This document shows positions 1,620 through 28,503 of a stretch of DNA of 64,000 nucleotides, piece by piece. The notes below the pieces were generated by a model, which ran no database searches, had not been told where the DNA came from, and saw nothing but the letters and a program-made list of their open reading frames with translations. The position numbers and the translations under genes are program-made. Position 1 is the first letter of the stretch. Every line of letters starts with the position of its first letter. The stretch comes from Acidobacteria bacterium SCN 69-37 (GTDB taxonomy: Bacteria > Acidobacteriota > Vicinamibacteria > Vicinamibacterales > SCN-69-37). The stretch covers positions 1 to 64,000 of the forward strand of contig MEDJ01000019.1 in NCBI GenBank assembly GCA_001724025.1, given 5' to 3'.

Positions 1620-1639
1620 AATAGGTCGACGTCTCCTTC

Positions 1640-4165: not shown

Positions 4166-4167
4166 CG

Positions 4168-7100: not shown

Positions 7101-7374
7101 GCGCCACGGCCTCGGCAGGATTCAGGCCGCGTTCGATCGCCTCCACTTCGGGCACTGCGAGCTGGCAGCCGACAATCAGGCGCCAGTGCCCCTGATTGCG
7201 AACCAGTCCTTCGACACCCCGCGACGCCAGCATGAGCACGCCTGCAGAGAAGAAGCCGGTGGCGCGGTCGTACCGCGTGGCCGCCGCAAGCGCCGGCTCG
7301 TAGAAGTCGCGCAGCAGGTTGTCGCGCCCCGACTTGTACTTCGCCTTCCACTTGCGGTCGGTCAGCAGACTCAT
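4168..7374 (-). CDS. SNF2/RapA-like helicase with N-terminal PLD domain (defence)
   Basis: This encodes 1068 residues. An N-terminal phospholipase-D-like nuclease domain (about 20-220) has HEK at 144-146 followed by NGSINET. The helicase has a Walker A DEVGLGKT (321-328), the DEAH box in [12 protein letters not shown], and a C-terminal lobe with [11 protein letters not shown] (motif VI). This architecture resembles the PLD helicases of DISARM-related and other DUF1156/DUF499 defence loci, where it is thought to translocate on and cut non-self DNA. Its start overlaps the methylase stop by 4 bases (ATGA), and the HEPN gene follows 2 bases after its stop. Confidence 0.92.
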
Positions 7375-10292
7375 CCGGCGTCCTCGCCGAGAAGCGTCAA
7401 CTGCTCCGGCTCACGGATGCGATCGGCAAACAGGAGGCGACGGACGTTCTCGAGGGCGTCGAAGTCCGAAGCCGCCTCGGCAAGCGGGCCAGCCGCCAGT
7501 TTGATGTTGGTGAAGGTCGACGACACCGGCAGCACCTCGAGCGCTGCGGTCAGGCCGGCGATGAACCCCGGCTCCTGCAGCAGTTGTTCGCGCTCGACCA
7601 ACTCGCGACCGGTCTGCAGTCCGGTCTGCCGTACTCGCCACGCCACGTGGTGCAGCGCGTCGAGCACGGCACGGCTGCCATCCGCCGGCCCGATCGTGCC
7701 CTTTGCGCCGCGGCGCGCGCTGTCCCACAGCACCAGATCCGACCCCTTCTTCTCCGCCAGATGTCCGACAATCTCGCGGTCGAGGTCCACACCGACGACG
7801 CGGGCAAGGCGCAGGGCTTCGTCGTAGGGAAACTGGGGCGACTTGAAAGCGTCCCAGGCCAGGATGAACCACTCGGTCAGCTTGTCGAGTTCCACCTGCC
7901 GCGATACCCGCAGCAACTGCTCCATACGCCAGCGTTTCACCTCGCGACGCGCGGCATCGAGTGCGTCTTCTGGTGTGACGGCATAGGGATCGAGCGCATC
8001 GGGCAGCAGCGTGTCCTGGCCCCGCCGCGGCCTTACCACTGGGCGCGGCTGTCCGCGGCGCAGCGGCCAGTGTTTCGCGAACTCCTCGAGCGCCGGACCG
8101 AAACACGACAGGTACAGGTCCACGCCACGGAGACCGGCCTTCTGGAACTGCTCGACCCGCGCCCGGACAGCCGCGGTGACTCGCGGCTCCGCATCCTCCC
8201 AGTACACGATCTCGTCGTCTGGTCGGCGATCCAGACGCGGACGGCAGACCAGAAAGATGGTGCTGTTGGCGGCAGACTTGTCCTTGATATGGAGGCTGCC
8301 CTCGGCCTCGGTGTTGATGGGCCACGACGCCGTAATCGTGAAGCCGGCGTCCATCAGACCGCTGGCCAGCGCATCCCAGGCGCCGGTGGCCTTGTGCGTG
8401 AACATCAGGGTCAGGATGCCGTCGGGCTTCAGCACGCGCCGGCACTCGGCGAAGATGGCGGCCATCTTCTGCTGGTAGTCCCGTCCAGCCAGGGCCTTGG
8501 CGCCTCTCTGCCCCTTGAACTTGGCGGGGTTGGCCACGGCTTCGGCGTCGGTGTCTGGCAATTGGCGCGTGAAGAGTTCCGGGAAGACGTAGCCCGCCGT
8601 GCGCTTGAGCCAGACGTAGAAGAACCCACTCAGCTCCGCGTACATCACGTTGTCGTAGTACGGCGGGTCCATCACCACCGCATCCACGCTGCTATTGTCG
8701 ATGTGCGACATCGAGTCCGCAGAGCCACAGGTGACGACAAGACTCGCGTCCGACCGCACGGCGTCAGCTTCATAGTTGAGGCCACGCTGGGACGCGGTCT
8801 CCTCTCCGTGAACAAGCGAGACAAGTTCACCAATGCACTTCGCCGTTTGTTTGAACGCCCATTCGAAACCAAGCCCGGTAACCAGCGGTGCCATTTCGGC
8901 GTACGACCACTTCATGGCGAAGTCATGACGATCGAAGGTGCCCGCAATGACTGCTCGATTGGGATGCCACCGCGTCATCCTGGAGTTGTAATCGCGCAAC
9001 TTATCGAGTGACATCGCAAAGTACACGAACGCCACCCGATCCAAGAGTGACAAGGGCCTTCGCTGCTCCCGCTCCGCGAGCAAACCACGAAAGAGCTCGA
9101 CGCTGATGGCATGGCACAACAGCTGCCGCTCAGAGAACATGTCCCGCCAGGAAGTCGCGCCGTAGCGAATCGGCTCGGACGTCTTGAGGCCAGGAGGAAC
9201 AGACTCTGTGGGCACGATGTCGTTCGCTTCCCACTCCGGCAGCTTCAGCCTGAGCCGCTCGGCGACCTGCTCCCGGTTGTCGTCTTCTGGGCGCGGGGCG
9301 CGGTATCCGCGGACCCACCTGATCTGTTTCCGACCGGTCTTGGTCTTGCCCTCGATACGTCTTTTGAAGACGACGGCGAAGAGCTGGTCGCCCATGGCGC
9401 CCGCCTGAGCCTGTCGCTTCACCTCGTCACCGTCGACGATGCGGCCGCAGTCGGGATACGGGCACTTCGCGTCACCTCCGGAGATGGTGCCCTCGCTCTG
9501 TTCCTCGACCGAATCGACAACCTCAAAGTCGCAGACCTTCCGCAACGGGTCTGGTCTCAAGGCGACACCGGTGCCGTCCGGCGCCAGGCGCCAGTTTGGC
9601 GACAGGGGAATCAGACCGTCGCAGTAGGGACAGGCGATCGTGCGCGCCCAGAGGTAACCGTCGATCAGGACGCCGTCGGGTTCGGCAGGGAATACTTCCT
9701 TGAAGTGAGGCTCAGCTTTGACAATGAACTCGGCCACGAGTTCCCGAAACCGCTGCGCGAGCTGTTCACCGAACTGGAAGGGCCAGTCAACAGTCGCTCG
9801 GAGCAGTAGCGCCGCCACTGGATTCAGATCGTTGGCGGCGACCGAGAACCCTAGCCGAAAAGCTTCCAAAGGGATGCTTCCGCCGCCGGCGGTCGGGTCC
9901 AGAACCCGCGGTTGGCTATCGAGGCCAACTCGCGCGATATTCGCCCGAGCCCAGGCGACGTCGGAGTCCGACGGTCGATAGGAGAATGCCCTGGTGTAGC
10001 CGTACACGTTCGGCCCAAGGTTTTCGCCTTTTCGCTTCGCGGCGTCTATACGCTTCCTTGTCGCCACCGGATCCCCGTGGATCCCCAGCACGAGTTTGAA
10101 CCGCTCTCGGTCCGCATCCGCCGGCAGCAGCGACGCCAGCACGGCGGCACGCGATGCCACGAGCGGCCGTCGCGCCCACCAGACGTGCAGGTAGTAGACC
10201 GGCGGCAGCGCGGTCATGGACCTGCGTTCGCGCGTACTTTCTTCGCCGAGTTCCGCAATGGGCAGCCAGGTTTCAATCAGTCGTGTTGTCAT
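7371..10292 (-). CDS. DUF1156-type DNA methyltransferase
   Basis: This encodes 973 residues. The N-terminus ([15 protein letters not shown]) is typical of DUF1156 proteins. The SAM-binding motif [16 protein letters not shown] begins at 131 and the catalytic MDPPYYDN is near 540, so it is probably an N6-adenine or N4-cytosine methylase. Zinc-finger-like pairs CPYCDG and CPYPDCG lie between them. In related loci the methylase marks host DNA while the helicase-nuclease attacks unmodified DNA. Both neighbours overlap it by 4 bases: Fic upstream and the helicase downstream. Confidence 0.92.
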
Positions 10293-11491
10293 CGCGTCGC
10301 CGGCGGTCTCGTCGTCGGAGTAACCATGTCGCGGCCCAGAAAGCCGACGATCTCACGCGCGACGTACACACGGTTACGTGTACGGCCGGTCACCTCTACC
10401 AGGATCCCGAGGTCCTGGAGCTTCGTGATCACAGACCCGGCCGTGGCCGCAGTCTTCCCGATCAACTGCGCCACACGGGTCGGTGTCGTGGTGGGAACAC
10501 GGAACAGGTCGTCGACGACAGTTAGGAGGGGCCCCGAGGAGCGCACTGCGCGCACCTGCGTGTGATAACGCTCGCGAAGCGCAAGGAGGTCTTCGGTCAG
10601 CACCTGACCGTCGCGCGCGCACTCGGCTACGCCCTGGAGGAAGAACGCCAGCCACGACTCCCAGTCACCATGGGTACTGACACGCAGCAGCAGATCGACG
10701 TATGCCTGCCGGTGACGCTCGAAGTAGGCGCTCATGTAGAGGAGTGGCGCCGACAGGCGGCCGCGCTCGCAGAGCAGTAGAGGAATCAGCAACCGACCCA
10801 GGCGTCCGTTGCCATCCCGGAAGGGATGAATGGCTTCGAACTGATAGTGAGCGACTGCGACGCGCACGAGTGTCGGCATCACGTCGTGTTCGAGGTGAAG
10901 ATCGTGCTCCCACGCGTCGAGTGCTGTGTGCATCTCGTCGACCGGCGGCGGCACGAAACGCGCGTCACTGATCGGCGCGTGCTGGGACCCGATGTAATTC
11001 TGCTCCCGCCGGAACTCGCCCGGCAGGTCCCGGCCGCCACGCACGCCGTGTAGCAGAACAGCGTGGAGCTCACGAAGCAGCCGGCGGGAAACCGGCAATC
11101 CGTCCAGCAGTTCCAGGCCACGTTCCATGGCGCGAACGTAGTTGAGGACCTCGCGTGTATCCGCCGTGATGCGTTCGTCCTCCTCGTCGGTCGGGACACC
11201 CGCCTCGAGTAACACGAGCTGTTCGGGAGTAGTGAAGGTACCCTCGATGCGGCTCGAAAGAATGGCCTCGCGCCGGAGGAGCGGCTGGCCAATAAGGTAG
11301 GGACTGACCAGGCGGCCGGCCGAGCCGTTCAGGAGGCCGAGCGTATAGACTGCGTCTTCGAGCAGGCGCACCGTTCCGGTGCCCAGCCGGAGCTCCGCCG
11401 GCATGGCGTCAGGTACGAACGCCACGGTTCCCCCCTCGGGGACCGGGACCAGTCGACCAGGGCTATCCTGTGTGAAATCAGATGGTTGCAC
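10289..11491 (-). CDS. Fic family protein (AMP-transferase)
   Basis: This encodes 400 residues. The Fic core motif [12 protein letters not shown] begins at 222, and an N-terminal inhibitory motif SSRIEGT at 79-85 marks a self-inhibited (class II) enzyme. A C-terminal winged-helix-like segment (about 325-395, [15 protein letters not shown]) suggests DNA binding or autoregulation. The family transfers AMP to protein hydroxyls. It sits between the small 160-aa gene and the methylase, overlapping the methylase start. An 86-base gap upstream holds a palindromic operator candidate, so it may have its own promoter. Confidence 0.9.
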
Positions 11492-11513
11492 GGCTGGTGT
11501 CAGTAATTGAGAG

Positions 11514-11544
11514 AACTGAAATAACGCCCACCGCTATTTCAGTT
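11514..11544 (-). promoter_or_regulatory. palindromic operator candidate upstream of fic
   Basis: AACTGAAATA (11514-11523) is the exact reverse complement of TATTTCAGTT (11535-11544), separated by 11 bases. A related half, AAAATAGCGC, lies at about 11560. It is the only intergenic gap of note in the defence operon and is centred about 38 bases before the fic start. A self-regulating winged-helix Fic protein is a plausible binder, but this is inference. Confidence 0.45.
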
Positions 11545-11578
11545 TTCGGTGCGTTCCTAAAATAGCGCAACCGTTGCC

Positions 11579-12061
11579 CTAAGAGTACTTGGGATCCACC
11601 AGGAGTGCCCGCAGCGCCTTGAGTACCCTCCGGGGGTACTTGCGGTGCATGGCCATGCCGAGCCAGTAGGCGGCCTCTTCGCGTGGCATCGCCTCGATGC
11701 CCTCGGCGACCGCGCGGATGTAGCCGCGGTGGCGCATGGGCGCCAGCGCTCTGAACATGAGGCCCAGCCGCAGCGCCCACGTTTCGGGCACGGAGAAGCG
11801 GTGACGATCACCAGTGCGAGTGCGGGTGATGTCGATGTGCTCGGCGCGGAGCTGCCGGAGCAGACGATGCTCGACCAAGGCGAAGTTGCGGCCACCGAGC
11901 CCACCGACGTAACGCGCCTCGCGCACTTCCGGTGTCGCGTGCGAGGGCAACTGCCACACCTCGAGCAGCAGGTCGCCAGCGCCGCGACGCTTCACACGGA
12001 GTTCGTACTGCGGCGTCGCGTGCAGGATGTCGATGGTGGCAGGCTGACGGGCGGCGCTCAT
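11579..12061 (-). CDS. small conserved protein of DUF499/DUF1156 defence loci
   Basis: This encodes 160 residues with no recognisable catalytic motif. It is rich in Arg and mixed alpha/beta, with text such as YELRVKRRG, FALVEHRLLRQLR and AYWLGMAMHRKYPRR. The start overlaps the stop of the ATPase gene by 4 bases, so it belongs to the operon. Small proteins of this size often sit beside DUF499 ATPases in these loci (possibly the family named DUF7680; I could not check this). A structural or specificity role is likely. Confidence 0.75.
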   Translation of the reverse strand: MSAARQPATIDILHATPQYELRVKRRGAGDLLLEVWQLPSHATPEVREARYVGGLGGRNFALVEHRLLRQLRAEHIDITRTRTGDRHRFSVPETWALRLGLMFRALAPMRHRGYIRAVAEGIEAMPREEAAYWLGMAMHRKYPRRVLKALRALLVDPKYS

Positions 12062-15039
12062 GACCGTTCTCCTCGCACCAGCTCGGCGCGGGCTTCGACT
12101 GTGCCGGTGGCAAAACGCGCAAGGCGTTCCGCGAGCTTCTGAGGCTCGTCACCGTCCAGTGACAGACCAGCTGCGTACGTCAGCGAGTATGACATCGTCA
12201 GATCCTTCTCACCCGCCGATCGGAACTGGGGCTGGAGGAACTCCTTCACGACCAGCGCGTCCTTCGGCGCGCCCTCGAACGTCAGGTCGAGCGTGCTGCC
12301 GGTAGACGTCTCGTAGGCGGCGGTGATCTCGACGCTGGTCTCGGCGCCAGGAATGCCGGTCATCGAGTTCAGCAGGCGGAGCGCCTCGTCCGCGTCGAAA
12401 ACCCGCAGACGGATCGACCGGATCTGCATCCCCGTCTTCGTGCGAGCCTGATCCCACAGGTGCGTGAGTGCTTCCTTCAGCGGCGCCTCGGCACGAATCT
12501 CGATTGTTCCCGGCGGCAGAGGCGGCGGGGTCGGGAGCGGCGTAGGTCCCGGTGGCGTCGGCTGCGGCCCTGGACCCGGCGCAGGTGTTCGCGGCCAGAT
12601 GCCGTGCTCCCGGGCGTAGGCCATGGTGAAGACCATGGAGTTTTCGTCGACGCGGATCTCAGCCCCAGGGTCCCCAGGTCCCAGTAACAGGTCGGCACTC
12701 CGGTAGACGTAGACCTCTTCCTGAATCCCCTTGCGGACGAGTTCGATGAAGTTGTCATCACCGAGCAGGATGGGCAGCCGCGGATCCTTCCTGAACTCGT
12801 TGCGCAGGGCGGCTGTTGTGATCTGGCCCTTCTTCAGCGGCGTCTGGTCGCGCACGTAGGTGGGAGCCAGCGGCGCGTCGCTGGCTCGGCGGATCTTGTT
12901 GTTGTTCTCGAGGGCGCGGAGAATGGCGAGCTGGCCGGAACCGGGGCGCTCAGACGCCGAAGGTACATCGAGCGCCGTGTGGCCAAGCTCCACCGTGGCG
13001 CCCTCGAGCCTGTTGTTGCGCGACGGGAAGAATACATGTCGGTAGCAGGTCTGGATCGCCGCAGCCAGTCGCTGCTCGGACTGCTGGAAGCGCTCGCGTA
13101 CGTCGTGCTGCTGGTGTTCGGCGAGCTGACCGATCCGTTCGGGCCGCGCGATGGCCTGCAGCGCCAGCCGGCGCACCATCGCGTCCTTCATCATCGTCTT
13201 CTGCGTCTCGTCGGCGGACAGGAACACGAGGTTGTTCTGGAGCGCGCGGAACTCCGACTGTGTGCCCTTGTAGCGGAAGATCTTCTCTACGACCTTCGGC
13301 ACCTCGAGGCGGTCGCTGCGGACCGCTTCGTTGTCGTGACCGATCAGGACGAGGAACGGGCGTCCCTCCTCGATGGAGTCTGGAACGTCCTCTGGTCCCG
13401 CGGCGAATGGGATCAGGCGGAGCGTCTGACCCTCATAGATGGCGCGAATCCGGTCCTGCAGGTCGCCGCGGGCCGCGTCGCGATCGACCTGCTGCTCCTG
13501 GCGACGGATGATCAGGTTCAGGTTGGCTTCCGTGAGGAACCGCTGCGGCACACCGGGCCGGTCGTCGAGGTAGGCCGACTGCGACGTGAACTTCTGCCGC
13601 GCGTCGTTGATGAACCCAAGGTCCATGCCCGGCGCGAGCGACGCGAAGCGGAGTTCCTCGACCGACGCGCCCTTCAACGGGTCGTTGAACGCGAATGAGT
13701 GCCAGAGGATCGACCGCGCGACGGCTGATCCGAACGGCGGAAGGCCGGCATAGTCGGCCACATCGATCTGCTGCGCGAGGGCCGTGCCGTTCGCCGACGC
13801 CACGTCGTTGTCGATGGCGGGAGCGAAGTTCCGGAGACCCAGGCGGGTGACGATTTCCGTACGAGTCGGACCGAAGGCCGGGTCGAGGTGGTGCAGATGT
13901 ACGGCGTAGGTCTGTGCCGGCTGTTCAGACCAGAGTTTCGCGACGGCCTGCGTCAACAGACGCAGCATGCCGCGCACGCGTTGGAAGTTCTCGAGGGTCG
14001 CGAGTTTGTCAGTCAGCACTGACAGCAGCTCTGGGTGGAGCGGGTAGCTGCGGCGGAACTCTTCTGTCGGATTCGCGTTCAGGCGAGTCGTGGGCAGATC
14101 GCCGGCGTGCTGTTTCCAGAGCGCGCTGTAGGCCTCGACCGCCTCTGCCGCGCCGGCCTCGTCTATATGGGCGAAGAGGCGACGACGGAGGACGGCGGCG
14201 GTCTCGTGTTCGGCGGTTGGTTCGAGGAGCGTGGCCTTGCGCGCCGCAACGCTCTCCGCTTCGGCGAGCTTCTCGGCGAGGTAGTCGTTCTCCTGCGCAT
14301 AGGCGTCGGAAGCCCCGCTCTTACCGAGGGCGAGGGTGAACACCAGCACGACGCCCGGTGAACTCTCGACAGCCTTGAACAGCGCCGTCAGGAAGGGTGT
14401 CAGCTGATCGGCCTCGGGCCGACCTTTCACCTTGCGGAGGTACACCGACAACTCGTCGAGCAGCATCAGCGCGGGTCGGCCGCCGAAAAGCTCAACGATC
14501 GTGGAGGCGCCAGGGGCCTTGCGCTGCTCGTCACTCGCGCGGACCCGTTCGTAGCCAGCCTTCCCTCCAAGCGCATAGGCCAGTTCGCCCCAGGGCGTGA
14601 AGGCGCGTATGCCGTCGCCGACGTCGCGCCCGTTGGCCGGGTCCGCGTTTTCGCCGTCGAAGGCGGCAACGGTGACGGGCGTGGAGGGAACGAGGGCGCG
14701 CTCGACGAACTCGTCGATGTTCGCGACTCCGGCCGCGCCGTTCGCGACGTGGGCGAGGGCGATCAGGGCGTGGGTCTTGCCACCGCCGTATTGCGTGTCG
14801 AGCCGGAAGATGGCGCTCGCTTCCCCGCCCGCACCCGACAGGCGACGGAACACGTTGGTCAGCAGGGCCTTTAGTCCTTCGGTCGGGTGGGTGTTCGCGA
14901 AGAACAGCGCCGGGTCCTGATACTCCTTCGCCGCCTCTTTGCGAAGGACCCGCGCCAGGTCGGCGGCGAACTCACTTTCGCGAATGGTGCCGTGGCGGAC
15001 GTCGTCTCTGGGCTCGCAGGTGTCGAAAATCGTTCGCAT
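12058..15039 (-). CDS. DUF499-type AAA+ ATPase of the defence operon
   Basis: The protein is about 993 residues from the ATG at 15039; in-frame ATGs at 15051 and 15087 are also possible. I chose 15039 because MRTIFDTCEPR matches how DUF499 proteins begin. In this numbering the Walker A-like QYGGGKTH lies near residue 85-90 and the Walker B-like ALMLLDELSVYL near 190-200. A Pro-rich linker (PGPGPQPTPPGP) at about residue 810-840 separates a C-terminal domain. It is the first gene of the operon. DUF499 proteins recur with DUF1156 methylases in defence islands; the ATPase presumably powers DNA sensing or modification control. Confidence 0.9.
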   Translation of the reverse strand: MRTIFDTCEPRDDVRHGTIRESEFAADLARVLRKEAAKEYQDPALFFANTHPTEGLKALLTNVFRRLSGAGGEASAIFRLDTQYGGGKTHALIALAHVANGAAGVANIDEFVERALVPSTPVTVAAFDGENADPANGRDVGDGIRAFTPWGELAYALGGKAGYERVRASDEQRKAPGASTIVELFGGRPALMLLDELSVYLRKVKGRPEADQLTPFLTALFKAVESSPGVVLVFTLALGKSGASDAYAQENDYLAEKLAEAESVAARKATLLEPTAEHETAAVLRRRLFAHIDEAGAAEAVEAYSALWKQHAGDLPTTRLNANPTEEFRRSYPLHPELLSVLTDKLATLENFQRVRGMLRLLTQAVAKLWSEQPAQTYAVHLHHLDPAFGPTRTEIVTRLGLRNFAPAIDNDVASANGTALAQQIDVADYAGLPPFGSAVARSILWHSFAFNDPLKGASVEELRFASLAPGMDLGFINDARQKFTSQSAYLDDRPGVPQRFLTEANLNLIIRRQEQQVDRDAARGDLQDRIRAIYEGQTLRLIPFAAGPEDVPDSIEEGRPFLVLIGHDNEAVRSDRLEVPKVVEKIFRYKGTQSEFRALQNNLVFLSADETQKTMMKDAMVRRLALQAIARPERIGQLAEHQQHDVRERFQQSEQRLAAAIQTCYRHVFFPSRNNRLEGATVELGHTALDVPSASERPGSGQLAILRALENNNKIRRASDAPLAPTYVRDQTPLKKGQITTAALRNEFRKDPRLPILLGDDNFIELVRKGIQEEVYVYRSADLLLGPGDPGAEIRVDENSMVFTMAYAREHGIWPRTPAPGPGPQPTPPGPTPLPTPPPLPPGTIEIRAEAPLKEALTHLWDQARTKTGMQIRSIRLRVFDADEALRLLNSMTGIPGAETSVEITAAYETSTGSTLDLTFEGAPKDALVVKEFLQPQFRSAGEKDLTMSYSLTYAAGLSLDGDEPQKLAERLARFATGTVEARAELVRGERS

Positions 15040-15181
15040 GGACGAGGGCATTCTACGGGAGAGGGAGGCGAATGCGCGATTGGGCAACCCGATGGGTGAG
15101 AGCGGCTGCCGGCTCCCTGCGCACCGCTGCCTCGGAGGTCTCCGAAGCGGTGCGACCGACCTGGTGCTCCGGCATCACGTC

Positions 15182-15571
15182 TCATGGCCAGATGGTGCTC
15201 GATGCTTCCGGACCGCCGATCTCCTCGACTCGAACGACGAACTCCGCAAGGTCAGGCACACCTCGATCGATCGTAAGTTCAACAACTTTCCTCTTGTCGT
15301 ACTGCTCGATCGTCTTGAAAGTCTCGAGGTCTCGGAAGTGAACAACTGAGCGGGTAGCACCAGTGTTGATGTGCGCAAGCCGGATCCTGGTAGCGTATCG
15401 ACCCACCAGTCGGCGGGTATCGGCGAAAATCACAGTCTGTCGTTGCTCACGATACGCCCGAGCACTGCGAAGGTCGTTGAGGCGCTTTTCGTCAACCCAG
15501 AAGAAGACACGACCGTTCAGGAGCCGATGCCAGTCCTCACCCTCGCTCGGGCTCGTGACGCTGAACGGCAT
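15182..15571 (-). pseudogene. DUF7002-like protein, N-terminus missing
   Basis: From WHRLLNGRVFFWVDEKRL to the end, the text matches the C-terminal two thirds of DUF7002-type proteins (FADTRRLV, INTGATRS, VVELTIDRGVPDLAEFV). The N-terminal domain expected at higher coordinates is absent: around 15545-15565 the sequence switches to a ParA-like gene on the other strand. The first residues (MPFSVTSPSEGE) are therefore out-of-family text created at the junction. It is probably non-functional. Confidence 0.6.
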
Positions 15572-15944
15572 CTCGATTTCCGACTACTACGTCATCCCGA
15601 CGATTCCCGACCATCTGTCGACGTACGGCATCAAGCAGATTGTGGACCGCGTGAAGGACTTCGCAGAAACGATCGGCAAGACAATCACCCCGCTCGGGAT
15701 CCTCGCAACGAAATACCGGGCGCAGTCTTCCGTACATAGCGCGCAGCTGAACATTCTCAAGCGCTACACTGAGGCGCCGTTGTTCGACACGGTTATTCCC
15801 GAGAACAACGACATCGCGCAGGCCGCGGAGTTCAAGGCTGTCTCGACGATGAGGCAAAAGTGGGGCTACCGCGGCCAGTTCGACATCTACCGCGCCTTCA
15901 CGAAGGAGATCCTGGACCGCGTCCAGGTACCGGTAGCTCAATGA
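15562..15944 (+). pseudogene. ParA-family ATPase, C-terminal fragment
   Basis: Beginning at NGISISDYYVIPT, the text matches the C-terminal half of ParA/Soj-like ATPases (DHLSTYGIKQIVDRVKDF, ILATKYRAQS, TVIPENNDIAQA, WGYRGQFDIY). The Walker A N-terminal half is missing, replaced across a junction near 15560 by the truncated DUF7002-like gene. The frame closes at 15942-15944 and overlaps the next start by 4 bases, showing the original two-gene unit. Confidence 0.65.
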
Positions 15945-16339
15945 GCGTTTCGACCATTCGACGCCTGTTCGACGAGATCTTGGCCGAGGCGGAACGTCGT
16001 CCGGATTTTGCCCGGCGTCTCGTCGCGGCGATCACCAGCGGTCCGACAGGATCCGCGCAGCCGGTGGTCGGCGGCGCGAAGCCGGCGCGGCGCAACCGGC
16101 GCGCAGCGGGTGTCGTGAACCCCTTCGACCAGTTCGCGCACGGCGAGGACGTGCTGCGCTCATCCCTCGCGCCGCTCTCGGTGGAACAACTGAAGGACAT
16201 CGTTGCCGAGCACGCCATGGACTCGTCGAAGCTCGCACTCAAGTGGCGATCGCCTGAACGGCTCGTCGACCTCATCGTGACCACGGTTCGTTCCCGAATT
16301 CAGAAGGGAGACGCCTTCAAGCGCGCATTCGCTGGGTAG
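15941..16339 (+). CDS. partner protein of the ParA-like gene
   Basis: This encodes 132 residues. The ATG at 15941 overlaps the ParA fragment's stop (ATGA). The N-terminal half is basic (KPARRNRRAAG, about residues 45-58). The C-terminal half is a helical domain with LSVEQLKDIVAEH and RSPERLVDLIVTTVRSR. Small second genes of this type accompany non-partitioning ParA-like ATPases. With the ATPase truncated, it is probably an orphan. Confidence 0.55.
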   Translation: MSVSTIRRLFDEILAEAERRPDFARRLVAAITSGPTGSAQPVVGGAKPARRNRRAAGVVNPFDQFAHGEDVLRSSLAPLSVEQLKDIVAEHAMDSSKLALKWRSPERLVDLIVTTVRSRIQKGDAFKRAFAG

Positions 16340-16361
16340 CGATAACGACAAGACGCCTAGC

Positions 16362-16845
16362 GGTGTCCCCACGATTGTCCCTGCGAGGGGCAAAAGCCGC
16401 GTCTCCAGAGCCAACAGTAGCTAAGTCACGCGACAGCGGAAGTTGTTGAAGGGCGCGGATTTACGAGGAAAAACGAGGATGTCCGAGAGCCGAGTTTCCG
16501 TTTAGCAAACCATCGCCTTCAGCCACTCGGCCACCTCACCGCGGCGAGAAACCTAAGTATACGACAGGCTTCGAGTTACGGGAACGCTGCTCTGTCCAAA
16601 TTGTCCCTGGAATTGTCCCTGCCAGCTCGCAAAACACGACATGGCAAAGCGCAGTGCGCGCGCGCTGAGCGCCGATCGGGAACGCAACGGTTCTTTTCGC
16701 CGACAAGTATCCCGGCAAGTGATTGGCGCGCGCCGCTTTACTCGCATGAGCCGGCGTCCACATATCTGGTCGGTCGTGCGTCGAGGACGCGAAGCGCGCG
16801 CAGATCTGGCGCGCGAACGGGCCGCCGTCAGGCACCGGTCTTTGA
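16362..16845. repeat. attachment-site-like direct repeat, copy A
   Basis: This segment is repeated at 35364-35850 (copy B), and its left part recurs at 58302-58446 (copy C) and, inverted, at 58643-58798 (copy D). It contains GATTGTCCCT at 16373-16382 on one side, and AATTGTCCCT twice at about 16600-16620 on the other. In the middle is the core TTTCCGTTTAGCAAACC. Positions 16493-16587 match copy B with one mismatch. Repeated short sites flanking a tRNA-derived core are the layout of tyrosine-recombinase att sites. I infer this is the left border of a roughly 19-kb island. The bases after about 16630 are less similar but still alignable. Confidence 0.75.
16501..16540 (-). other. tRNA-Ser(GCU) 5' half (partial) in att copy A
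   Basis: Read on the minus strand, GGTGAGGTGGCCGAGTGG followed by the D-loop text and TTTGCTAAA matches positions 1-40 of a tRNA-Ser(GCU). After the anticodon loop the pairing strand of the anticodon stem, variable arm and T arm are absent; CGGAAACTCGG follows instead. It is not a functional tRNA. The break lies in the anticodon loop, a common crossover point for integrases. Confidence 0.7.
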
Positions 16846-17133
16846 AACCGGTTCCTGCTGTTTGAGGTGACCTCGACGGACGTCGTCCCGGCGCTGCCAA
16901 TGAAGCTGTTGCGGTGCAACGCCGTCCAAGACCGAAGTGGCCTGTCGCGGACGACGATCTAGCGGCTCGAACGTCGCGGAGAGTTTCCGAAGCGTGTCAG
17001 GATTACCTCAAGCCTCGTCGCCTGGCTGGACGACGAAGTCATGGCCCGGATCCGCTCCAAACAGGATTGCCCGGCGGCGTGACGTCAGGATCGCTCGCGG
17101 CTCCCGTTGGAGTACACAGGCGTGAGTGATACG
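16846..17133. other. intergenic stretch with no recognised feature
   Basis: Between att copy A and the first metal gene I see no convincing gene. Short open frames here have no family resemblance. The promoter of the following metal genes must lie here, but no clear -35/-10 pair stands out. Confidence 0.5.
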
Positions 17134-17442
17134 ATGGCGCCCACAATGTTCGGCCGGTTGAGTCGGCGTGTCGTTTTGGTCATCGCGCTGTTTGTCACAG
17201 TCGATGCCCTCGTCTGCCCGGTGATGTGCCTGGTCGCGGGCGCCGAGTCGCATCAGGCGTCTAGCTCTGGCACGCAGGGAACAGCTTCGCTGATTTGCGG
17301 CGCGTGCTCCGCTGGCACCGGCCCGCTTCAAAGTTACCTCCCGACGGCACTCGTGCTGGTCACGGATTGCCGCACCCTACCCATCGACCCACCGTGCATC
17401 GCGCCGGTCGGCGATATCGACCACCCGCCTCGGCTCGCCTAA
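17134..17442 (+). CDS. small exported Cys-containing protein
   Basis: About 102 residues from the ATG at 17134; a GTG or ATG slightly upstream is possible. A signal-peptide-like N-terminus (RRVVLVIALFVTVDALV) is followed by VCPVMC and then ICGACSAG. The C-terminal part is Pro-rich with a conserved-looking ending (DHPPRLA). It is immediately upstream of the czcCBA-like genes and is probably a periplasmic metal-binding or sensing peptide; no family is recognised. Confidence 0.55.
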   Translation: MAPTMFGRLSRRVVLVIALFVTVDALVCPVMCLVAGAESHQASSSGTQGTASLICGACSAGTGPLQSYLPTALVLVTDCRTLPIDPPCIAPVGDIDHPPRLA

Positions 17443-17523
17443 TCCCTTAGCAATTCGTTTCACCGGCACGGTCCATTAGTGGCCGTGCGCTCCGTTTTCA
17501 TTTGTGCAACTCGAGGGTTGTTT

Positions 17524-18873
17524 ATGCGGCTACTCGCATGGTCGTGTGTCGTGCTGTTCCTTTGCAGTGGCCTGCCGCCAGCGGCAGCGCAGGGTTTTCG
17601 GGAGTCGTTGGGGTCCGCGGTGTCTGGCGCGCACACCGTTCAGGTTGGCGCACAAGGCCAGGGGCTGGCGCCCGACGACTTTCAGCGTCTGGCGCTGGAG
17701 CGCAATGCCGATCTCCTGGCGGTACGTCAGGACATTGCGGCTGCCCGTGGATTTGTGACGCAGGCGCGGCTTCGTCCCAACCCTGGAGTGGACGTGAGCG
17801 TCACGAGCGGCCGGCCGCTCGGCTCGCCGGGCGAGCGCGCCTTCGACGTGGGTTATGCCCACACCATTGAGCTCGGAGGAAAGCGTGCGCGACGTATCGA
17901 TGTCGCGCAGGTAGGCGTTGAGATCGCCGAGTTCCTTGTGGCCGACCGCGAGAGGCTCCTGCGGGCGGACATTCATGCACGGTACGCGGAGGCGCTGGCT
18001 GCTGCACGTAACTTCGCGACGCTCGGGGAACTGTACGAGTTGAACGACAGGAGCTTGCGGGTTGCCACTCAGCGCGTGTCCGAGGGCGAAGGCGCACCGC
18101 TCGAGCGGATACTGCTGCAAGTAGAAGTCGGGCGCATGGCGGCCGATCGATCGCTCGCGGGAGGTGCGGCGGAACGGGCGTTCACCGCGCTCAAGCTCGC
18201 GTCTGGTATGCCGCCCAGTGATTCGCTTGTACTTCGAGGCGAGTTGACCACTCCGGGGGTGGACGTGTCGCTCGATCAGGCCGTCGAACGCGCTCTTATG
18301 CAGCGGCCGGATCTGAAGGCGGCACGGGCCGAGGAGGCACGCGCCGACGCCGAGCTGAGGCTGGCCGGAGCGGAGCGGGTCCCAGACGTCATTGGCGTCG
18401 TCCGCTACGAACAGAATTCGACGCGGTTCGAGCAGTTCGGCACCACCGCGAGCGGCCAGATCGTTCCGCTGCGCGACACGGACCGCACCCTCACCGCTGG
18501 TGTATCGATTCCGTTGCCGTTCGCGAATCGGAATCAGGGTGCCATCGAAGCCGCGCAGGCTCGCCGCCAGGCCGCGGCGCTGCGTCGCCAATACATCGAA
18601 CAGTCCGTTCGGGCGGATGTTCGGGCGGCCTTCGCGCAGTACGTAGGAGCACGCCAGGCCATTGATGCATTCGATGGGCAGGTCATCAAACAGGTTCAAC
18701 AGACGGTGAACATCATTCGCACAAGCTACGAACTCGGCGAGAGTCAGCTGCTAGACCTCGTACAGGAGCAGAGACGCCTGGTCGAAACGCAGAAGGCATT
18801 CACCGATGTACTGAAAGAGCTGTACATCGCCCGCGCGACGCTCGAAGCGGCCGTCGGCGGAGAGTTGAGGTAA
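17524..18873 (+). CDS. czcC: CzcC-like outer-membrane factor (TolC family)
   Basis: This encodes 449 residues and begins with a clear signal peptide (MRLLAWSCVVLFLCSG, cleavage after AAAQ). I chose the ATG at 17524 rather than the upstream in-frame start for that reason. Two long coiled-coil OEP repeats are visible, with typical text LRPNPGVDVSVTSG and the second-half equivalent AERVPDVIGVVRYEQNS. It forms the outer-membrane tunnel of the RND pump whose adaptor and transporter follow directly (4- and 10-base gaps). Confidence 0.92.
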   Translation: MRLLAWSCVVLFLCSGLPPAAAQGFRESLGSAVSGAHTVQVGAQGQGLAPDDFQRLALERNADLLAVRQDIAAARGFVTQARLRPNPGVDVSVTSGRPLGSPGERAFDVGYAHTIELGGKRARRIDVAQVGVEIAEFLVADRERLLRADIHARYAEALAAARNFATLGELYELNDRSLRVATQRVSEGEGAPLERILLQVEVGRMAADRSLAGGAAERAFTALKLASGMPPSDSLVLRGELTTPGVDVSLDQAVERALMQRPDLKAARAEEARADAELRLAGAERVPDVIGVVRYEQNSTRFEQFGTTASGQIVPLRDTDRTLTAGVSIPLPFANRNQGAIEAAQARRQAAALRRQYIEQSVRADVRAAFAQYVGARQAIDAFDGQVIKQVQQTVNIIRTSYELGESQLLDLVQEQRRLVETQKAFTDVLKELYIARATLEAAVGGELR

Positions 18874-18877
18874 TGAA

Positions 18878-20170
18878 ATGGTGATGGAATCGCAAACCGG
18901 GTCCGGCGCGCCTGGCGCACGCCGCGCGTTGTTTCTGGCTGTCGTGGTGGCTGCCGTTATCGCGGTGATTGTCGTGGTTCAAATGCGAACGTCCTCGCCG
19001 GAGGCGGAGCCGGAGGGCACGACGGAAGAAGCCTCCGAAGCTGTGTCGTCGGACGCAGTAACAATCGGCGACGACGTCCGCGACGCGATCGGCTTGGCAG
19101 TCGTCGCTGCAGAAGAGCGGCCATTCGCCGCGATGATTCAGACGACAGGTGTCGTTATGCCGAACGAGACGCGCGTGGCGCACGTCCGCCCGCTCGCGCC
19201 GGGACGTGTCGAGCAGCTCCACGTGCGCACGGGCGATCGCGTCACCGCGGGCCAGCCGCTCGTCACCTACGACAACATCGAGATGGGGCAGCTCGCAGGT
19301 GAATATCGCGCCGCCGCCGCCGCCGTGGAGCGCGCAGAGGCCGAGGCCGACGTCGCACGCCGCGCGCTTGAACGCGCGGGACGGCTGGTCGAATCCGGGG
19401 GCATTTCTCGAGCCGAACAGGAACGCCGCGACGCGGAGCACAAGCGCGCGCTCGCCGGCATCAATGTGGAGCGCGCCGCGCTGTCGAACGTCGAACAGAA
19501 GTTGCGGCGCTTCGGCGTGACGAGCGCCGAGCTCTCGACGTTCAGTTCAGCCGGGGGTGGTGGATCCCGCGGCGTCCTGCGCGCGCCGTTTGCGGGCGTC
19601 GTGACTGCCACCGACGTCGCGCCCGGCGAAGCGGTCGACACGCAGACGGAGGTCGTCACCGTCACCGACCTTTCTACCGTGTGGGTACTGGGCGACATTT
19701 ACCAAAAGGACCTCGGATCCGTCCGCCGCGGGCAGGATGCACTCATCACCGTTGAAAGCTATCCGGGCGAGACCTTCAGCGGACGCATCACCTATATCAG
19801 CGACGTCCTGGATCCCACGAGCCGGACGGCGAAGGTGCGAGTCGAGGTGCCGAATCGCGATAGTCGCCTGAAGCTGGAAATGTTCGTCAGCATGCAGGTG
19901 CCCACCGGCGAGACGCGTTCGACCGTGACCATTCCGTCCGCCGCCCTGCAGGAGATCGACGAACAACCCGTCGTGTTCGTCCAGGCCACGGACGATCGCT
20001 ACGAGAAGCGGGTCGTGAAGGTAGGACCCGCTCAGCGCGACAGCGTGCCGGTGCTGGAGGGCCTCAAGGCAGGTGAGCGCGTCGTGACGACGGGTGCGTT
20101 CATGCTCAAGAGCAAGCTGAAAGCCTCATCCATCGAGGCCGAAGGCGAAGAAGAAGAAGAGGCCCCGTAA
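18878..20170 (+). CDS. czcB: CzcB-like RND periplasmic adaptor
   Basis: This encodes 430 residues: one N-terminal transmembrane anchor (ALFLAVVVAAVIAVIVVVQM), then barrel-sandwich and helical-hairpin segments (RPLAPGRVEQLHVRTGDRV; AGEYRAAAAAVERAEAEADV) and the membrane-proximal domain. The C-terminus is acidic (EAEGEEEEEAP), possibly metal-attracting. No N-terminal His-rich metal-binding segment is present. It lies between the outer-membrane factor and the pump in one operon. Confidence 0.92.
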   Translation: MVMESQTGSGAPGARRALFLAVVVAAVIAVIVVVQMRTSSPEAEPEGTTEEASEAVSSDAVTIGDDVRDAIGLAVVAAEERPFAAMIQTTGVVMPNETRVAHVRPLAPGRVEQLHVRTGDRVTAGQPLVTYDNIEMGQLAGEYRAAAAAVERAEAEADVARRALERAGRLVESGGISRAEQERRDAEHKRALAGINVERAALSNVEQKLRRFGVTSAELSTFSSAGGGGSRGVLRAPFAGVVTATDVAPGEAVDTQTEVVTVTDLSTVWVLGDIYQKDLGSVRRGQDALITVESYPGETFSGRITYISDVLDPTSRTAKVRVEVPNRDSRLKLEMFVSMQVPTGETRSTVTIPSAALQEIDEQPVVFVQATDDRYEKRVVKVGPAQRDSVPVLEGLKAGERVVTTGAFMLKSKLKASSIEAEGEEEEEAP

Positions 20171-20180
20171 GGGAACTGCC

Positions 20181-23100
20181 ATGATCGAACGCGTTCTCGA
20201 TTTCAGCATCCGTTGGCGTGGTCTCGTCGTCATTCTTGGCGTCGTCCTCGTCGCGTTCGGCCTCTACTCCGCGACACGTCTGCCGATCGACGCCGTTCCC
20301 GACATCACCAGCAATCAGGTCCAGATCAATACGGTGGCGCCGGCATTTGCCCCGCTCGAGATGGAGCAGTACGTCACGTTCCCCATCGAGGTGGCGTTGA
20401 GCAGCCTCCCCCGTAAGCAGGAGGTACGGTCCATCTCGCAGTTCGGCCTCTCGCAGGTCACGGTAACGTTCGACGACGATGTGGACCTGTACTGGGCGCG
20501 GCAATTGGTGCTGGAGCGCCTTGGTGAGGCGGAACGCGACCTGCCGCCCGGTGTGGTGCCGGAACTGGGACCGGTCAGCACAGGCCTCGGCGAGATCTAC
20601 CAGTTCACGGTCGAACGCGACACCTCAGTGGCTCCCGACCAGGACTTGCTGGCTGCCGGCGGCGTCGCCGGAACCCAAACCAACGACAGCCTCACCGACC
20701 TCCGTACGATCCTGGATTGGTACATCAAGCCGCAGCTACGCACCGTCCCAGGTGTCATCGAGGTCAACAGCTTCGGAGGGCGAGAGAAGCAATACGAGGT
20801 GCTCGTGGATCCGGCGCGGCTCGCCGGATTCGGGCTGACGCTGCGGCAGGTTGTGGAAGCGCTGGAGCGGAACAACGCGAACGCAGGCGGCGCGTACATC
20901 GAGCGCGGCGGTGAGCAAGAGTTGCTGCGCGGCGTCGGCCTGATTCGGTCCGTCAGCGACATCGAGACCATCGTCGTCGCAGCGCACAACGGGACACCTA
21001 TTTATGTGCGTGACGTCGGCCGGGTCGCCATCGGCGCGCAGGTCCGGCAGGGTGCCGCAACCCGCGACGGGCAAGGCGAAACGGTGATGGGGATGGCGAT
21101 GCTCCTCAAAGGAGAAAACGGCCGGACCGTCACCGAGGCTGTCAAAGCGCGTCTAGACGTGATCCAGAAGTCTCTGCCCCCCGGGATCGTCATCAGGCCC
21201 TTCTACGACCGAACGGACCTCATCGGAAACACCATCGCCACGGCCAGCACGAACCTGATTGAGGGCGGCTTGCTCGTGATCGTCGTCCTGTTCCTGTTCC
21301 TGTTACAGGTCCGCGCCGGGCTCATCGTGTCGTCGGCCATTCCGTTGTCCATGCTGATCGCGATTATTGGTATGAATTACTTCGGGGTGTCTGCGAACCT
21401 GATGAGCCTTGGCGCCATCGACTTTGGCCTGGTGGTGGACGGCGCCGTGATCATTGTCGAGAACACCGTGCGGCGGCTGGCGGAACGCCGGCATGCGCTC
21501 CAACGTGCGCTCACAGCCCAGGAGCGGCACGGAATCACCAAAGAGGCCGCGGTTGAGGTGCTGAAGCCGGCGCTGTTCGGGATGGTCATCATCATTGCGG
21601 CCTATCTGCCGATCCTGACGCTTTCCGGTATTGAAGGAAAGATGTTCAGGCCGATGGCGTTCACGGTGATCCTGGCGCTGTCCGGCGCCGTGGTGCTGAG
21701 TCTGACCCTCATTCCGGCACTCTGCGCGTTCTTCCTGCGCGATCCCGCCCGTGAACGCGACCATCCTGTGCTCGCGCGTCTCACCCCCGCATATCTGCGC
21801 CTGCTCGTGCGCTTCGTCGCGCATCCGGCGAAGACGGCGGCGGCGGCCGCCCTCATCTTCCTGGCGAGTGGTTCTCTGTTCTTCACCATGGGCAGTGAGT
21901 TTCTTCCTCAGCTCGAGGAGGGCGCGCTGGCGGTCAACCACGTGCGCCTCAAGAGCGTGTCGCTGACCGAAGCCGTGCGCCAGTCCGCGATCGTCGAGCG
22001 CACGCTGCAGTCGTTCCCCGAGGTGCAGTCCACTGTAAGTCGCATCGGGCGTCCCGAAATCGCCACCGATCCCATGGGACCGGACATGACGGACACCTAC
22101 GCCATCCTGAAGCCGCGTGACCAGTGGCGCGACGACGTTGACCAGGATGACCTCGTTCGCGAGGTGTCGGAACGGCTCGAAGCGATTCCAGGGGTGGTCG
22201 CGTCCATCTCGCAGCCAATCGAATTCCGCATGATGGAGCTCATCGAAGGCGTCGGCGTGCGCGCGGATGTCGGCATCAAGATCTTCGGCGAAGACATGAA
22301 CACGCTCCTGCGTGAGGCCAACGAAGTGGCCGCCGTCGTGCGAACAATCCCCGGCGCTGCCGACGTCAAGGTGCAGCAAATCACCGGCCTGCCAGTGCTC
22401 GACATCACCATCGATCGCCAGGCGATTGCACGATACGGGATCAACGCGGCGGACGTGCAGGAAGTCATTCAGTCAGCGGTCGCGGGGACGGAGGCGTCCA
22501 CCGTCCTTGAAGGATTCATGCGGTTCGACCTCGTGGTCCGCTTCCCTCCGGAAGTGCGCAAGGATGCGGAAGCGATCGGTAACCTCCTCGTCAGCGCGCC
22601 GAACGGTGAGCGCGTACCCCTGCGGCAGGTTGCCCAGATCGTGAGCCGCGAGGGGCCGGCTGAAGTCAGCCGGGAGAACGGGCAACGGCGCATTACCGTC
22701 GAAGTCAACGTTCGGGACCGCGATATCGGCTCGATGGTGGCGGAAGCGCAGCAGAAGGTGGCCGCCGCCGTCCCACTACCGGCCGGATACACGATGGACT
22801 GGGGCGGCATGTACGAGCACCTCGAGAGTGGGCGCCAGCGCCTGCTGATCGTGGTGCCGATTACCTTCGCCATCATCTTCCTGCTGCTGTTCACGACGTT
22901 CAATTCGCTGAAGCAGGCCGCGCTGGTGTTTACGGGCATCCCATTCGCGATCACTGGAGGCCTCCTTGCCTTGTTTCTGCGCGGGATGGACTTCTCGATG
23001 AGTGCGGGCGTTGGATTCATCGCGCTGTTCGGCGTCGCCGTGCTGAATGGAGTCGTCATGCTCAGCTTCATCAATCAGTTGCGCGAGGAAGGAAAAACGG

Positions 23101-23339
23101 TGAGCGAAGCCGTGTTGGAAGGCGCGGAGAAGCGGTTTCGCCCCGTGCTGATGACGGCCGCCGTCGCGAGCCTCGGATTCGTTCCCATGGCGCTGTCCTC
23201 CGGTACCGGCGCCGAAGTGCAACGGCCCCTGGCCACGGTGGTGATCGGCGGCTTGATCACCTCCACGCTGTTGACGCTCTTCGTTCTTCCCACGTTGTTC
23301 GCCTGGTTCGAACGGGACCGGCCGGAGGTCGAGCTGTGA
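20181..23339 (+). CDS. czcA: CzcA-like heavy-metal RND pump
   Basis: This encodes 1052 residues, full length for the family. The TM4 motif DFGLVVDGAVIIVEN (near residue 413) matches the divalent-cation (Zn/Co/Cd/Ni) HME-RND class rather than the Cu/Ag class. Two large periplasmic loops and twelve membrane segments are apparent. It drives proton-coupled export through CzcC/CzcB. Its stop overlaps the next gene's start (GTGATG). Confidence 0.95.
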   Translation: MIERVLDFSIRWRGLVVILGVVLVAFGLYSATRLPIDAVPDITSNQVQINTVAPAFAPLEMEQYVTFPIEVALSSLPRKQEVRSISQFGLSQVTVTFDDDVDLYWARQLVLERLGEAERDLPPGVVPELGPVSTGLGEIYQFTVERDTSVAPDQDLLAAGGVAGTQTNDSLTDLRTILDWYIKPQLRTVPGVIEVNSFGGREKQYEVLVDPARLAGFGLTLRQVVEALERNNANAGGAYIERGGEQELLRGVGLIRSVSDIETIVVAAHNGTPIYVRDVGRVAIGAQVRQGAATRDGQGETVMGMAMLLKGENGRTVTEAVKARLDVIQKSLPPGIVIRPFYDRTDLIGNTIATASTNLIEGGLLVIVVLFLFLLQVRAGLIVSSAIPLSMLIAIIGMNYFGVSANLMSLGAIDFGLVVDGAVIIVENTVRRLAERRHALQRALTAQERHGITKEAAVEVLKPALFGMVIIIAAYLPILTLSGIEGKMFRPMAFTVILALSGAVVLSLTLIPALCAFFLRDPARERDHPVLARLTPAYLRLLVRFVAHPAKTAAAAALIFLASGSLFFTMGSEFLPQLEEGALAVNHVRLKSVSLTEAVRQSAIVERTLQSFPEVQSTVSRIGRPEIATDPMGPDMTDTYAILKPRDQWRDDVDQDDLVREVSERLEAIPGVVASISQPIEFRMMELIEGVGVRADVGIKIFGEDMNTLLREANEVAAVVRTIPGAADVKVQQITGLPVLDITIDRQAIARYGINAADVQEVIQSAVAGTEASTVLEGFMRFDLVVRFPPEVRKDAEAIGNLLVSAPNGERVPLRQVAQIVSREGPAEVSRENGQRRITVEVNVRDRDIGSMVAEAQQKVAAAVPLPAGYTMDWGGMYEHLESGRQRLLIVVPITFAIIFLLLFTTFNSLKQAALVFTGIPFAITGGLLALFLRGMDFSMSAGVGFIALFGVAVLNGVVMLSFINQLREEGKTVSEAVLEGAEKRFRPVLMTAAVASLGFVPMALSSGTGAEVQRPLATVVIGGLITSTLLTLFVLPTLFAWFERDRPEVEL

Positions 23340-23671
23340 TGCACGAGATCAAGGCCATCATCCGGCCGCAGCGGCTGGATGAGGTGATGAGGGCGCTTCA
23401 CGCGATTGCCGGCCTCCCCGGCGTAACCGTGTCGACAGTCCACGCGTACTCGCGGCCCCAGCCGCACGATCCCGAAGTCGCTCCGCGGGGCCTCGAGGCC
23501 GACTTCATCAAGCTGGAAACCGTCGTGCCCGACGCGCTTGCGGACCGCGTCGTGGAGGTCATTCAACGGGCGGCGACAACGGGACGGCCCGGTGATGGCA
23601 TGGTCTTCAAGATCCCCGTGGCGGATGCGGTCCGTGTGCGTAACGGAGAGCATGGCGTCACGGCCTTGTAG
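23339..23671 (+). CDS. PII-like (GlnB/CutA fold) protein
   Basis: This encodes about 110 residues (ATG at 23339; a GTG at 23336 is possible). The ferredoxin-like pattern starts EIKAIIRPQRLDEVMRALHAI, and the C-terminal part has AATTGRPGDGMVFKIPVADAVRVR, typical of PII signalling proteins. PII-like proteins coupled to czcA homologues are known and are thought to sense metals or nucleotides for the pump. It overlaps the czcA stop. Confidence 0.85.
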   Translation: MHEIKAIIRPQRLDEVMRALHAIAGLPGVTVSTVHAYSRPQPHDPEVAPRGLEADFIKLETVVPDALADRVVEVIQRAATTGRPGDGMVFKIPVADAVRVRNGEHGVTAL

Positions 23672-23694
23672 GGGCGTATTCGCTGGTCAGTTCC

Positions 23695-24285
23695 ATGGCC
23701 GCTGACCATGCTCAGCAGCGGCGGGTGCTGCGGCAGGTGTTTGCGCTGAACGTACTCTTGTCCGTCGCGCTCACGCTGGCAGGCGTCTATGCGGATTCGA
23801 GCGGCCTGATGGCGAACGCGCTCGACAACGCGTCGGATAGTGCCGTGTACGCGATCAGCTATTTCGCGGTCGGGAAATCACCGCACCGCAAAACCGTGGC
23901 GGCGACGATCTCGGGTGCCATGCTCCTTGTGCTTGCCGGCATCGTCATCGCCGATGCGATGCGGCGATTCTTTGCCGGCGCCGAGCCGGTCAGTGGCGTG
24001 ATGGTCGCGATGGGCGTCGTTGCCGGTGGCGTCAACTTGTGGTCGCTGCGGCTTCTCCGCCGCTTGCAGACCAAAGACGTCAACCTTCGGGCGGCCCAGA
24101 CGTTCAGCGTCAACGATTTCATCTCGAATGTCGGCGTACTCGTAGCGGCAGCTCTGGTGGCATGGACCGGCACGTTCTGGCCCGATCTCGTTGTTGGGAT
24201 GGCGATCGCCGTTGTCGTCGCGTGGGGCGGGATCGCGATCCTTCGCGACGCCCGCCATACCCGTCGCGGGGTTCTGCATGGCTGA
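23695..24285 (+). CDS. cation diffusion facilitator-type transporter, membrane domain only
   Basis: This encodes 196 residues with about five or six membrane segments. The metal-site segments ANALDNASDSAVY and FSVNDFISNVGV correspond to TM2 and TM5 of CDF proteins (Asp/Asn in place of the His/Asp set of ZnT/CzcD). The cytoplasmic C-terminal domain of classical CDFs is absent. It is probably a Zn/Cd/Co exporter across the inner membrane, feeding the periplasmic RND pump. Confidence 0.82.
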   Translation: MAADHAQQRRVLRQVFALNVLLSVALTLAGVYADSSGLMANALDNASDSAVYAISYFAVGKSPHRKTVAATISGAMLLVLAGIVIADAMRRFFAGAEPVSGVMVAMGVVAGGVNLWSLRLLRRLQTKDVNLRAAQTFSVNDFISNVGVLVAAALVAWTGTFWPDLVVGMAIAVVVAWGGIAILRDARHTRRGVLHG

Positions 24286-28492: not shown

Positions 28493-28503
28493 GAGGTGTC
28501 TGA

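Follow-up and report, generated by a model that had tools for sequence, protein, structure and literature searches.

A probable attP-like junction of stacked islands at tRNA-Ser(GCT) in an acidobacterium

The window analysed here is a stretch of 64,000 nucleotides from Acidobacteria bacterium SCN 69-37 (assembly GCA_001724025.1, contig MEDJ01000019.1, positions 1 to 64,000 of the forward strand), and the subject is a region near position 16,500 in which short repeats surround a tRNA-derived sequence. As far as sequence can tell, the region is very probably an attP-like junction of two mobile islands stacked at tRNA-Ser(GCT), with an attachment (att) site of the arm/core type that tyrosine integrases use. 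The sites would thus belong to a known kind. The reading is carried by the anatomy of the copies, their fixed spacings, their recurrence in relatives, and an integrase family that has the same repeats beside the same tRNA. What began as a hunch from the sequence is now a defined att system with arms, core, ends and an integrase family.

Arms and core at the junction copies

The window has 9 occurrences of the word ATTGTCCCT where 0.19 would be expected, and 0 of 100 shuffles reached 9. Its positions are 16374, 16600 and 16612 in copy A, 35375, 35602 and 35614 in copy B, and 58312 (+) and 58772 (-) in the C region, with one lone site at 50115 (-). An arm consists of two TTGTCCCT-like direct repeats that follow each other with a period of 12 base pairs (bp). 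The initial annotation had described repeats that flank the core like integrase arm sites, with one site on one side and two on the other. The pair on the right stands, whereas the single site on the left does not, as the left side also has a pair with a weaker outer repeat: in copy A it reads GTGTCCCCACGATTGTCCCT (16363-16382), and the left pairs at 35364 and 58301 begin CTGTCCCC. The positions were said to be conserved between A and B, and the distance from left pair to right pair is indeed 238 bp in copy A and 239 bp in copy B. The layout is complete at A and B (35364/35603) and partial at C (58301; 58772 on the minus strand). In the whole genome the pair pattern (at most 2 mismatches) gives 10 matches against 0 for its reversed control. 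Eight of these fall on att copies, namely two at A, two at B, one each at C1 and C2, and two places on contig C6 (left half 74742-74893, minus strand; right end 87777-87913).

The core, which had also been described as tRNA-derived, corresponds to the anticodon stem-loop of tRNA-Ser(GCT) at 16500-16511. In intact tRNA-Ser(GCT) genes of relatives this stem-loop reads CGGTTTAGCAAACCG, and the cores of the att copies match it. Inverted half-sites surround a 7-bp overlap, matching attB, at which cleavage would take place; the overlap is probably TTAGCAA (16502-16508). The 5′ half of the tRNA follows on the minus strand, and in the region upstream of it TATACT (16556-16561), picked by eye, is a possible -10 element. 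ARAGORN reports no tRNA in the window, which is expected because only half tRNA genes are present there. The left end of copy A also contains AGCCAA-type repeats (16409-16415 and 16419-16425) that perhaps serve an accessory protein. The features of the copies are as follows.

16363..16382 (+): left arm pair, copy A; two direct repeats 12 bp apart, the outer one weak (pattern search, left-end alignment)
16383..16499 (+): left (L) end between arm and core, copy A (alignment of 18 L-ends, R1 model)
16500..16511 (no strand): core GTTTAGCAAACC, anticodon stem-loop of tRNA-Ser(GCT), copy A
16502..16540 (-): 5′ half of tRNA-Ser(GCT) on the island, copy A (intact genes in relatives for comparison)
16541..16585 (-): region upstream of the tRNA half, copy A
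16601..16620 (+): right arm pair, copy A (word count, pair pattern search)
35364..35383 (+): left arm pair, copy B (pair pattern search)
35501..35512 (no strand): core, copy B
35503..35541 (-): 5′ half of tRNA-Ser(GCT), copy B
35603..35622 (+): right arm pair, copy B (word count, pair pattern search)
58301..58320 (+): left arm pair, copy C1, which is a left half lacking right arms (pair pattern, R1 model)
58438..58446 (no strand): core, copy C1
58772..58791 (-): left arm pair of the inverted copy C2, with the core at 58644-58652 (-)

The anatomy suggests how the copies may have arisen. A tyrosine integrase would bind the paired TTGTCCCT repeats as arm-type sites through its N-terminal domain, and strand exchange would occur at the anticodon stem-loop core. 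Both ends of an island would be fixed: on the left an arm pair is followed after about 120 bp by the core, and on the right the core is followed by the tRNA 5′ half with its upstream region and then by 2-3 arm sites. Insertion would oust the old 5′ half of the tRNA gene and bring a new one together with a promoter that could drive it. Repeated insertion at the restored tRNA would then build a head-to-tail array in which each junction is attP-like, and A and B would be such junctions. Beyond what the initial annotation had noticed, then, the sites are probably tandem-array junctions, the left arm is double, and the search of the window's contig yielded no integrase.

Spacing and integrases in related genomes

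The annotation had pointed to att copies in other genomes as the place to look for site conservation, and to random spacing there as evidence against its proposal. In 39 sources (the window, L007 and L060-L096) the arm-core offsets are few, mostly 139-140 bp on the left and 99-101, 113-114 or 82 bp on the right. The 40 regions from relatives were chosen by hand, non-randomly, from pair-pattern matches within the order. L070, L097, L098 and L099 look like chance pairs, with no core and no conserved end; the spacing count leaves out L097-L099 and keeps L070, as it keeps the degenerate L065 and the unclear L088, neither of which has a core. The 39 sources contain 68 repeat pairs with at most 2 mismatches, overlapping registers of triple sites being counted. 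Over a range of about 300 bp, the TTAGC[AC]A core is found downstream of pairs only at 134 (1), 139 (13) and 140 bp (3), and upstream of pairs only at 82 (3), 87-89 (7), 94 (1), 99-101 (12) and 113-114 bp (4), where the 87-89 bp offset is the register of a third arm site. The remaining pairs have no recognisable core in that range. Arm-type repeats thus flank the core on both sides at conserved distances, as in an att site, and the random spacing that would have spoken against the annotation's proposal is not what the further copies show.

Left ends recur well beyond the window. R1, a sequence model built from 18 left ends in 12 genomes, finds left ends in 36 of the 162 genomes of the order and in 30 of its 86 genera, the model's own 12 genomes included, and the genome studied here is the richest with five. 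Among 14 further left-end loci outside the training set, a core can be recognised in 7, at distances of 137-141 bp (139 in five of them), and the other 7 have none. By hand count the pair pattern occurs in 43 of 162 genomes within the order versus 14 with the reversed control; outside the order it occurs in 11 of 136 versus 30, which is at or below control.

Relatives also display the intact target. An intact tRNA-Ser(GCT) with right arms upstream of the matching 5′ half is found in L062, L063, L069, L072, L079, L080, L081 and L093. L079 shows both ends of an island, 3.1 kb from arm to arm, with the displaced 5′ half, armless, after the left end. L079 is therefore an island with a displaced 5′ tRNA-gene fragment, while the window shows junction copies only.

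The genome has 11 PF00589 matches, and one of these integrases is encoded on contig C6 (89595-90698, minus strand; 63.4 bits against a cut-off of 27.1). Tyrosine integrases carry the residue pattern R-K-HxxR-H-Y, and the R, K, HxxR, H and Y residues are invariant across 10 aligned relatives, so that domain score and residue pattern together mark the family as tyrosine integrases. The N-terminus is predicted to form three strands and a helix, and the best structural match of the model is lambda integrase (1z1b, E 3e-8). Two relatives of the C6 integrase at 82-83% identity (L072/L115 and L081/L114) have the right arm pair CAGGGACAATTTCAGGGACAAT within the last integrase codons, where it reads GTISGTI, and tRNA-Ser(GCT) directly after. 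Together with the cross-genome spacing, these pairs bear out the original comparison of the repeats with integrase arm sites.

The arms go with the integrase rather than with the tRNA: L173 (56%), which also precedes tRNA-Ser(GCT), has different letters (GGGCACACTTTCGGGCACAG and GGGCACAC onward). Nearly the same letters as in the two close relatives stand beside tRNA-Leu(CAA), on its 3′ side, in L086/L182 and L095/L192 (55-58% to L114). More distant integrases have other letters at the same place, beginning GGGCACG in L122 and GGGCACAAC in L123, beside tRNA-Val and tRNA-Arg. A repeat that agrees in 7 or more of 8 letters is present in 9 of the 11 integrases of the order that have a tRNA within about 250 bp of the stretch scanned. 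Among relatives on viral contigs (45 found, 37 examined, near-duplicates included), 28 of 37 show such a repeat at 11-13 bp spacing near the integrase end, and 22 of 37 an exact one by hand count; random stretches gave 992 and 187 of 3,000, respectively.

Several observations weigh against the junction reading. The C6 integrase (L164) has lost the tail that bears the arm pair in its relatives, with no repeat found in the stretch scanned; the C6 right end lies about 1.7 kb from it, and the core of that end, GGTTCAACAAACC, is unlike those of A and B. The fitness of this integrase to move A and B is uncertain for these reasons, and our confidence in the reading was lowered slightly because the C6 core differs. 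In L115 a stop codon lies upstream in the reading frame. Among 30 integrases of the order, only 13 show a repeat of this quality (7 or more of 8 letters) in the stretch scanned, and the structure model is of moderate quality (mean predicted local distance difference test score, pLDDT, 76.9; predicted template-modelling score, pTM, 0.49; TM-scores to 1z1b 0.33-0.37). C1 and C2 face each other, and the array is hence not purely head-to-tail. No complete island that combines both ends with an integrase of its own was seen. A DNA search of the assembly found serine tRNAs with anticodons GGA, TGA and CGA and no intact tRNA-Ser(GCT), which means that the chromosomal end of the array is unseen. The window's contig begins within the array.

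Islands without integrases and rival explanations

The junctions delimit the following islands in the window.

1..16508 (+): Island 1, cut by the contig start, ending in L-end A; defence genes
16502..35508 (+): Island 2, A to B, 19.0 kb; no integrase found
35503..58446 (+): Island 3, B to C1, 22.9 kb; no integrase found

Contig C19, which contains the window, has no PF00589 match, and tblastn gave no match in the window, serine recombinases not being part of the search. By these two methods the window holds no autonomous island with its own integrase between att sites. Movement in trans by an integrase such as that of C6, including excision, would be the most likely route because no integrase was found in or beside the islands.

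Island 1 has a fusion of reverse transcriptase and trypsin-like protease (1640-3313; best PADLOC match RT-Protease_XI, a retron-type reverse transcriptase), adjoined by Hma-like defence genes (4168-15087). PADLOC calls the helicase best as BrxH, with HmaA lower, and the methylase and ATPase best as HmaB and HmaC; SoFic is also called. The cargo of Island 2 comprises resistance-nodulation-division (RND) metal efflux (17479-23339), a cation diffusion facilitator (CDF) transporter (23695-24285), a P-type ATPase (26390-28492) and YnfA (34984-35316). Island 3 has CusA/CzcA, two heavy-metal P-type ATPases, a MerR-family regulator and, by likeness, a YnfA-like gene. A gene block ahead of left ends B and C1 is duplicated (33969-34981 and 56920-57947, 69-87% identity), with YnfA-like genes after both copies.

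Elsewhere, six spans from right arm to left arm measure 1.2-5.6 kb; a clear core is absent from both the L061 right end and the L087 left end. A toxin-antitoxin pair or an antitoxin lies by the left end of several small islands (Phd/YefM in L074, ParDE in L084, nucleotidyltransferase/HepT in L075), and L085, L087 and L090 have toxin-antitoxin genes by likeness only. The L075 ends sit at tRNA-Ser(TGA).

Two further observations concern the left ends. A stretch of about 90 bp after the core is common to three of them in two genomes (window 58447-58540, C6:74660-74757 and L147); its minus strand, read by eye, gives ...WNPLTSWMRQIEDFxxAA-stop, and it has no match in plasmid records. A second left-end type occurs at the same core in this genome (C19:100077-100105) and in L064, L066 and L087, with GCCAACGCCAACCAA repeats and a strong hairpin, and perhaps belongs to another integrase family.

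A layout that differs from the one at integrase-type ends is common to fourteen integrase-less right ends in 12 genomes, although these were picked for their likeness and provide no independent test of it. The core distance is 99-101 bp in all 11 that have a recognisable core, and a third arm site is present in 12 of the 14, being unclear in A and B. Past the arms lies a module with two core-like sites, located in the window as follows.

16688..16702 (+): core-like site 1, copy A, CGGTTCTTTTCGCCG, one mismatch to CGGT-N7-ACCG
16836..16850 (+): core-like palindrome site 2, copy A, CGGT-N7-ACCG
35690..35704 (+): core-like site 1, copy B, one mismatch
35837..35851 (+): core-like palindrome site 2, copy B

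About 66 bp past the arms comes site 1 (CGGTTYTT...), which fits the CGGT-N7-ACCG palindrome with no more than 1 mismatch in 9 of 14. The site 2 palindrome lies 203-216 bp past the arms in 14 of 14 (11 exact, 3 with one mismatch); the background for the exact palindrome is 0.089 per kb overall. The seven middle bases are variable. Five integrase-type ends have no site 2 palindrome at that distance, the nearest being in L072 at 199 with one mismatch. An exact palindrome stands at 203-238 in L084, L087, L092 and L093, and L064 and L069 have none at the site 2 distance. Comparison of the site 2 stem with the tRNA target yields too few cases, since L076 and L088 lack a comparable palindrome. Because of indels between copies, no consistent reading frame is seen in the module across the 14 ends. 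A structured RNA was considered for the module and dropped, as the fold is weak (-3.57 kcal/mol, 8 pairs); one pair is changed on both sides in 5 of 14 sequences.

From these ends we tentatively propose, with rather less than even confidence, that the islands form a distinct class of integrase-less cassettes of 1-23 kb with conserved phage-type ends in one order of Acidobacteriota. Such cassettes would stack at tRNA-Ser(GCT), sometimes at tRNA-Ser(TGA), replace the tRNA 5′ half and promoter, be moved in trans by the integrases of other elements, and shuffle metal-resistance, defence and toxin-antitoxin genes in an integron-like manner. The palindromes about 66 and 214 bp past the right arms, which the five integrase-type ends do not have at that place, might be second integrase or accessory sites that let the ends work without an integrase of their own. 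The analysis also points to a cassette-like way in which metal-resistance and anti-phage genes may reach uncultured Acidobacteriota.

The islands might instead be fossils, that is, decayed integrase-carrying islands each of which lost its integrase by deletion. L085 retains the integrase-type right-end spacing (113 bp) without a recognisable integrase, and several ends, such as those of L078 and L091, seem cut short. However, the layout shared by the 14 right ends, with its core distance, third arm and module, is not of the integrase type; no relative of the C6-type integrase occurs in the available stretches around them, nor does any match to it in the six spans of 1.2-5.6 kb. Conserved integrase-less ends argue for selection as a class, and we consider such decay unlikely, if less so than the two explanations below.

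That the TTGTCCCT repeats are operators for transcription or for a host factor, with no tie to recombination, is very improbable: short direct repeats at fixed spacing are typical of operators too, yet these stand on both sides of the core at fixed distances and coincide with the end of the integrase gene in two relatives, and other integrases have repeats with other letters at the same place. A single homologous duplication behind A and B, with site conservation merely reflecting recent copying, is a shade more improbable again. From core through tRNA half to upstream region the two copies are 98.9% identical over 91 columns, whereas their L-ends are only 72.7% and their right ends 74.7% identical, the bodies beyond the ends reach 33-40% in a forced alignment, and the same ends are also present in other families within the order. 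This identity profile largely refutes duplication, and gene conversion of the 91-bp middle is possible. The reading as a junction of stacked islands with arm/core sites is thus preferred to each of these.

Comparison with known systems

A literature search of partial coverage, judged by titles and abstract openings, found no published description of this att system. One close parallel is the lambda-type attP, as in lambda and phage D3-like integrases, where arm repeats likewise flank a core with a 7-bp loop and the catalytic residues are present. The lambda layout serves here as a general comparison and is not matched base by base, and the integrase is remotely similar to phage integrases (27-28%), that of phage D3 included. 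Unlike in the lambda type, the arm pair of the relatives lies in the 3′ end of the integrase gene beside the 5′ end of the tRNA, and no integrase was found in the window islands.

Cis-mobilizable elements (CIMEs) and integrase-less relatives of integrative and conjugative elements (ICEs) carry integrase-less cargo between usable att sites, in arrays, much as the window islands may do. In the window the ends are present and an integrase was not found; movement in trans would make the islands CIME-like. To our knowledge, the described examples come from other phyla; here, in contrast, a conserved class of ends is spread over an acidobacterial order. Integron cassettes offer a further analogy, as they are small integrase-less units, some with toxin-antitoxin genes, arrayed by a trans-acting tyrosine recombinase. 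The islands differ from them in having att sites of the phage type, with arms and a tRNA-derived core, and no attC-type site was noticed in the islands, although no search was aimed at attC.

The pTN3-like archaeal integrases restore a tRNA that is expressed from the element's promoter, and according to the review describing them such element-driven expression is rarely encountered in bacteria (PMC8371274). In the pTN3-like case the integrase promoter is used, whereas the right end described here appears to bring an upstream region of its own for the tRNA, and arms as well.

The tRNA islands catalogued by Islander resemble the present ones in the att site at the anticodon loop, the displaced tRNA-gene fragment and the tandem arrays. 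In that catalogue the displaced fragment is the 5′ one in 159 of 3,919 islands versus the 3′ one in 3,760, and just 4 tandems of three or more are recorded (PMC4383910). Unlike most Islander islands, those described here displace the 5′ fragment. The Islander filter discards candidates without an integrase (PMC4383910), and integrase-requiring island finders of this kind would overlook islands such as these.
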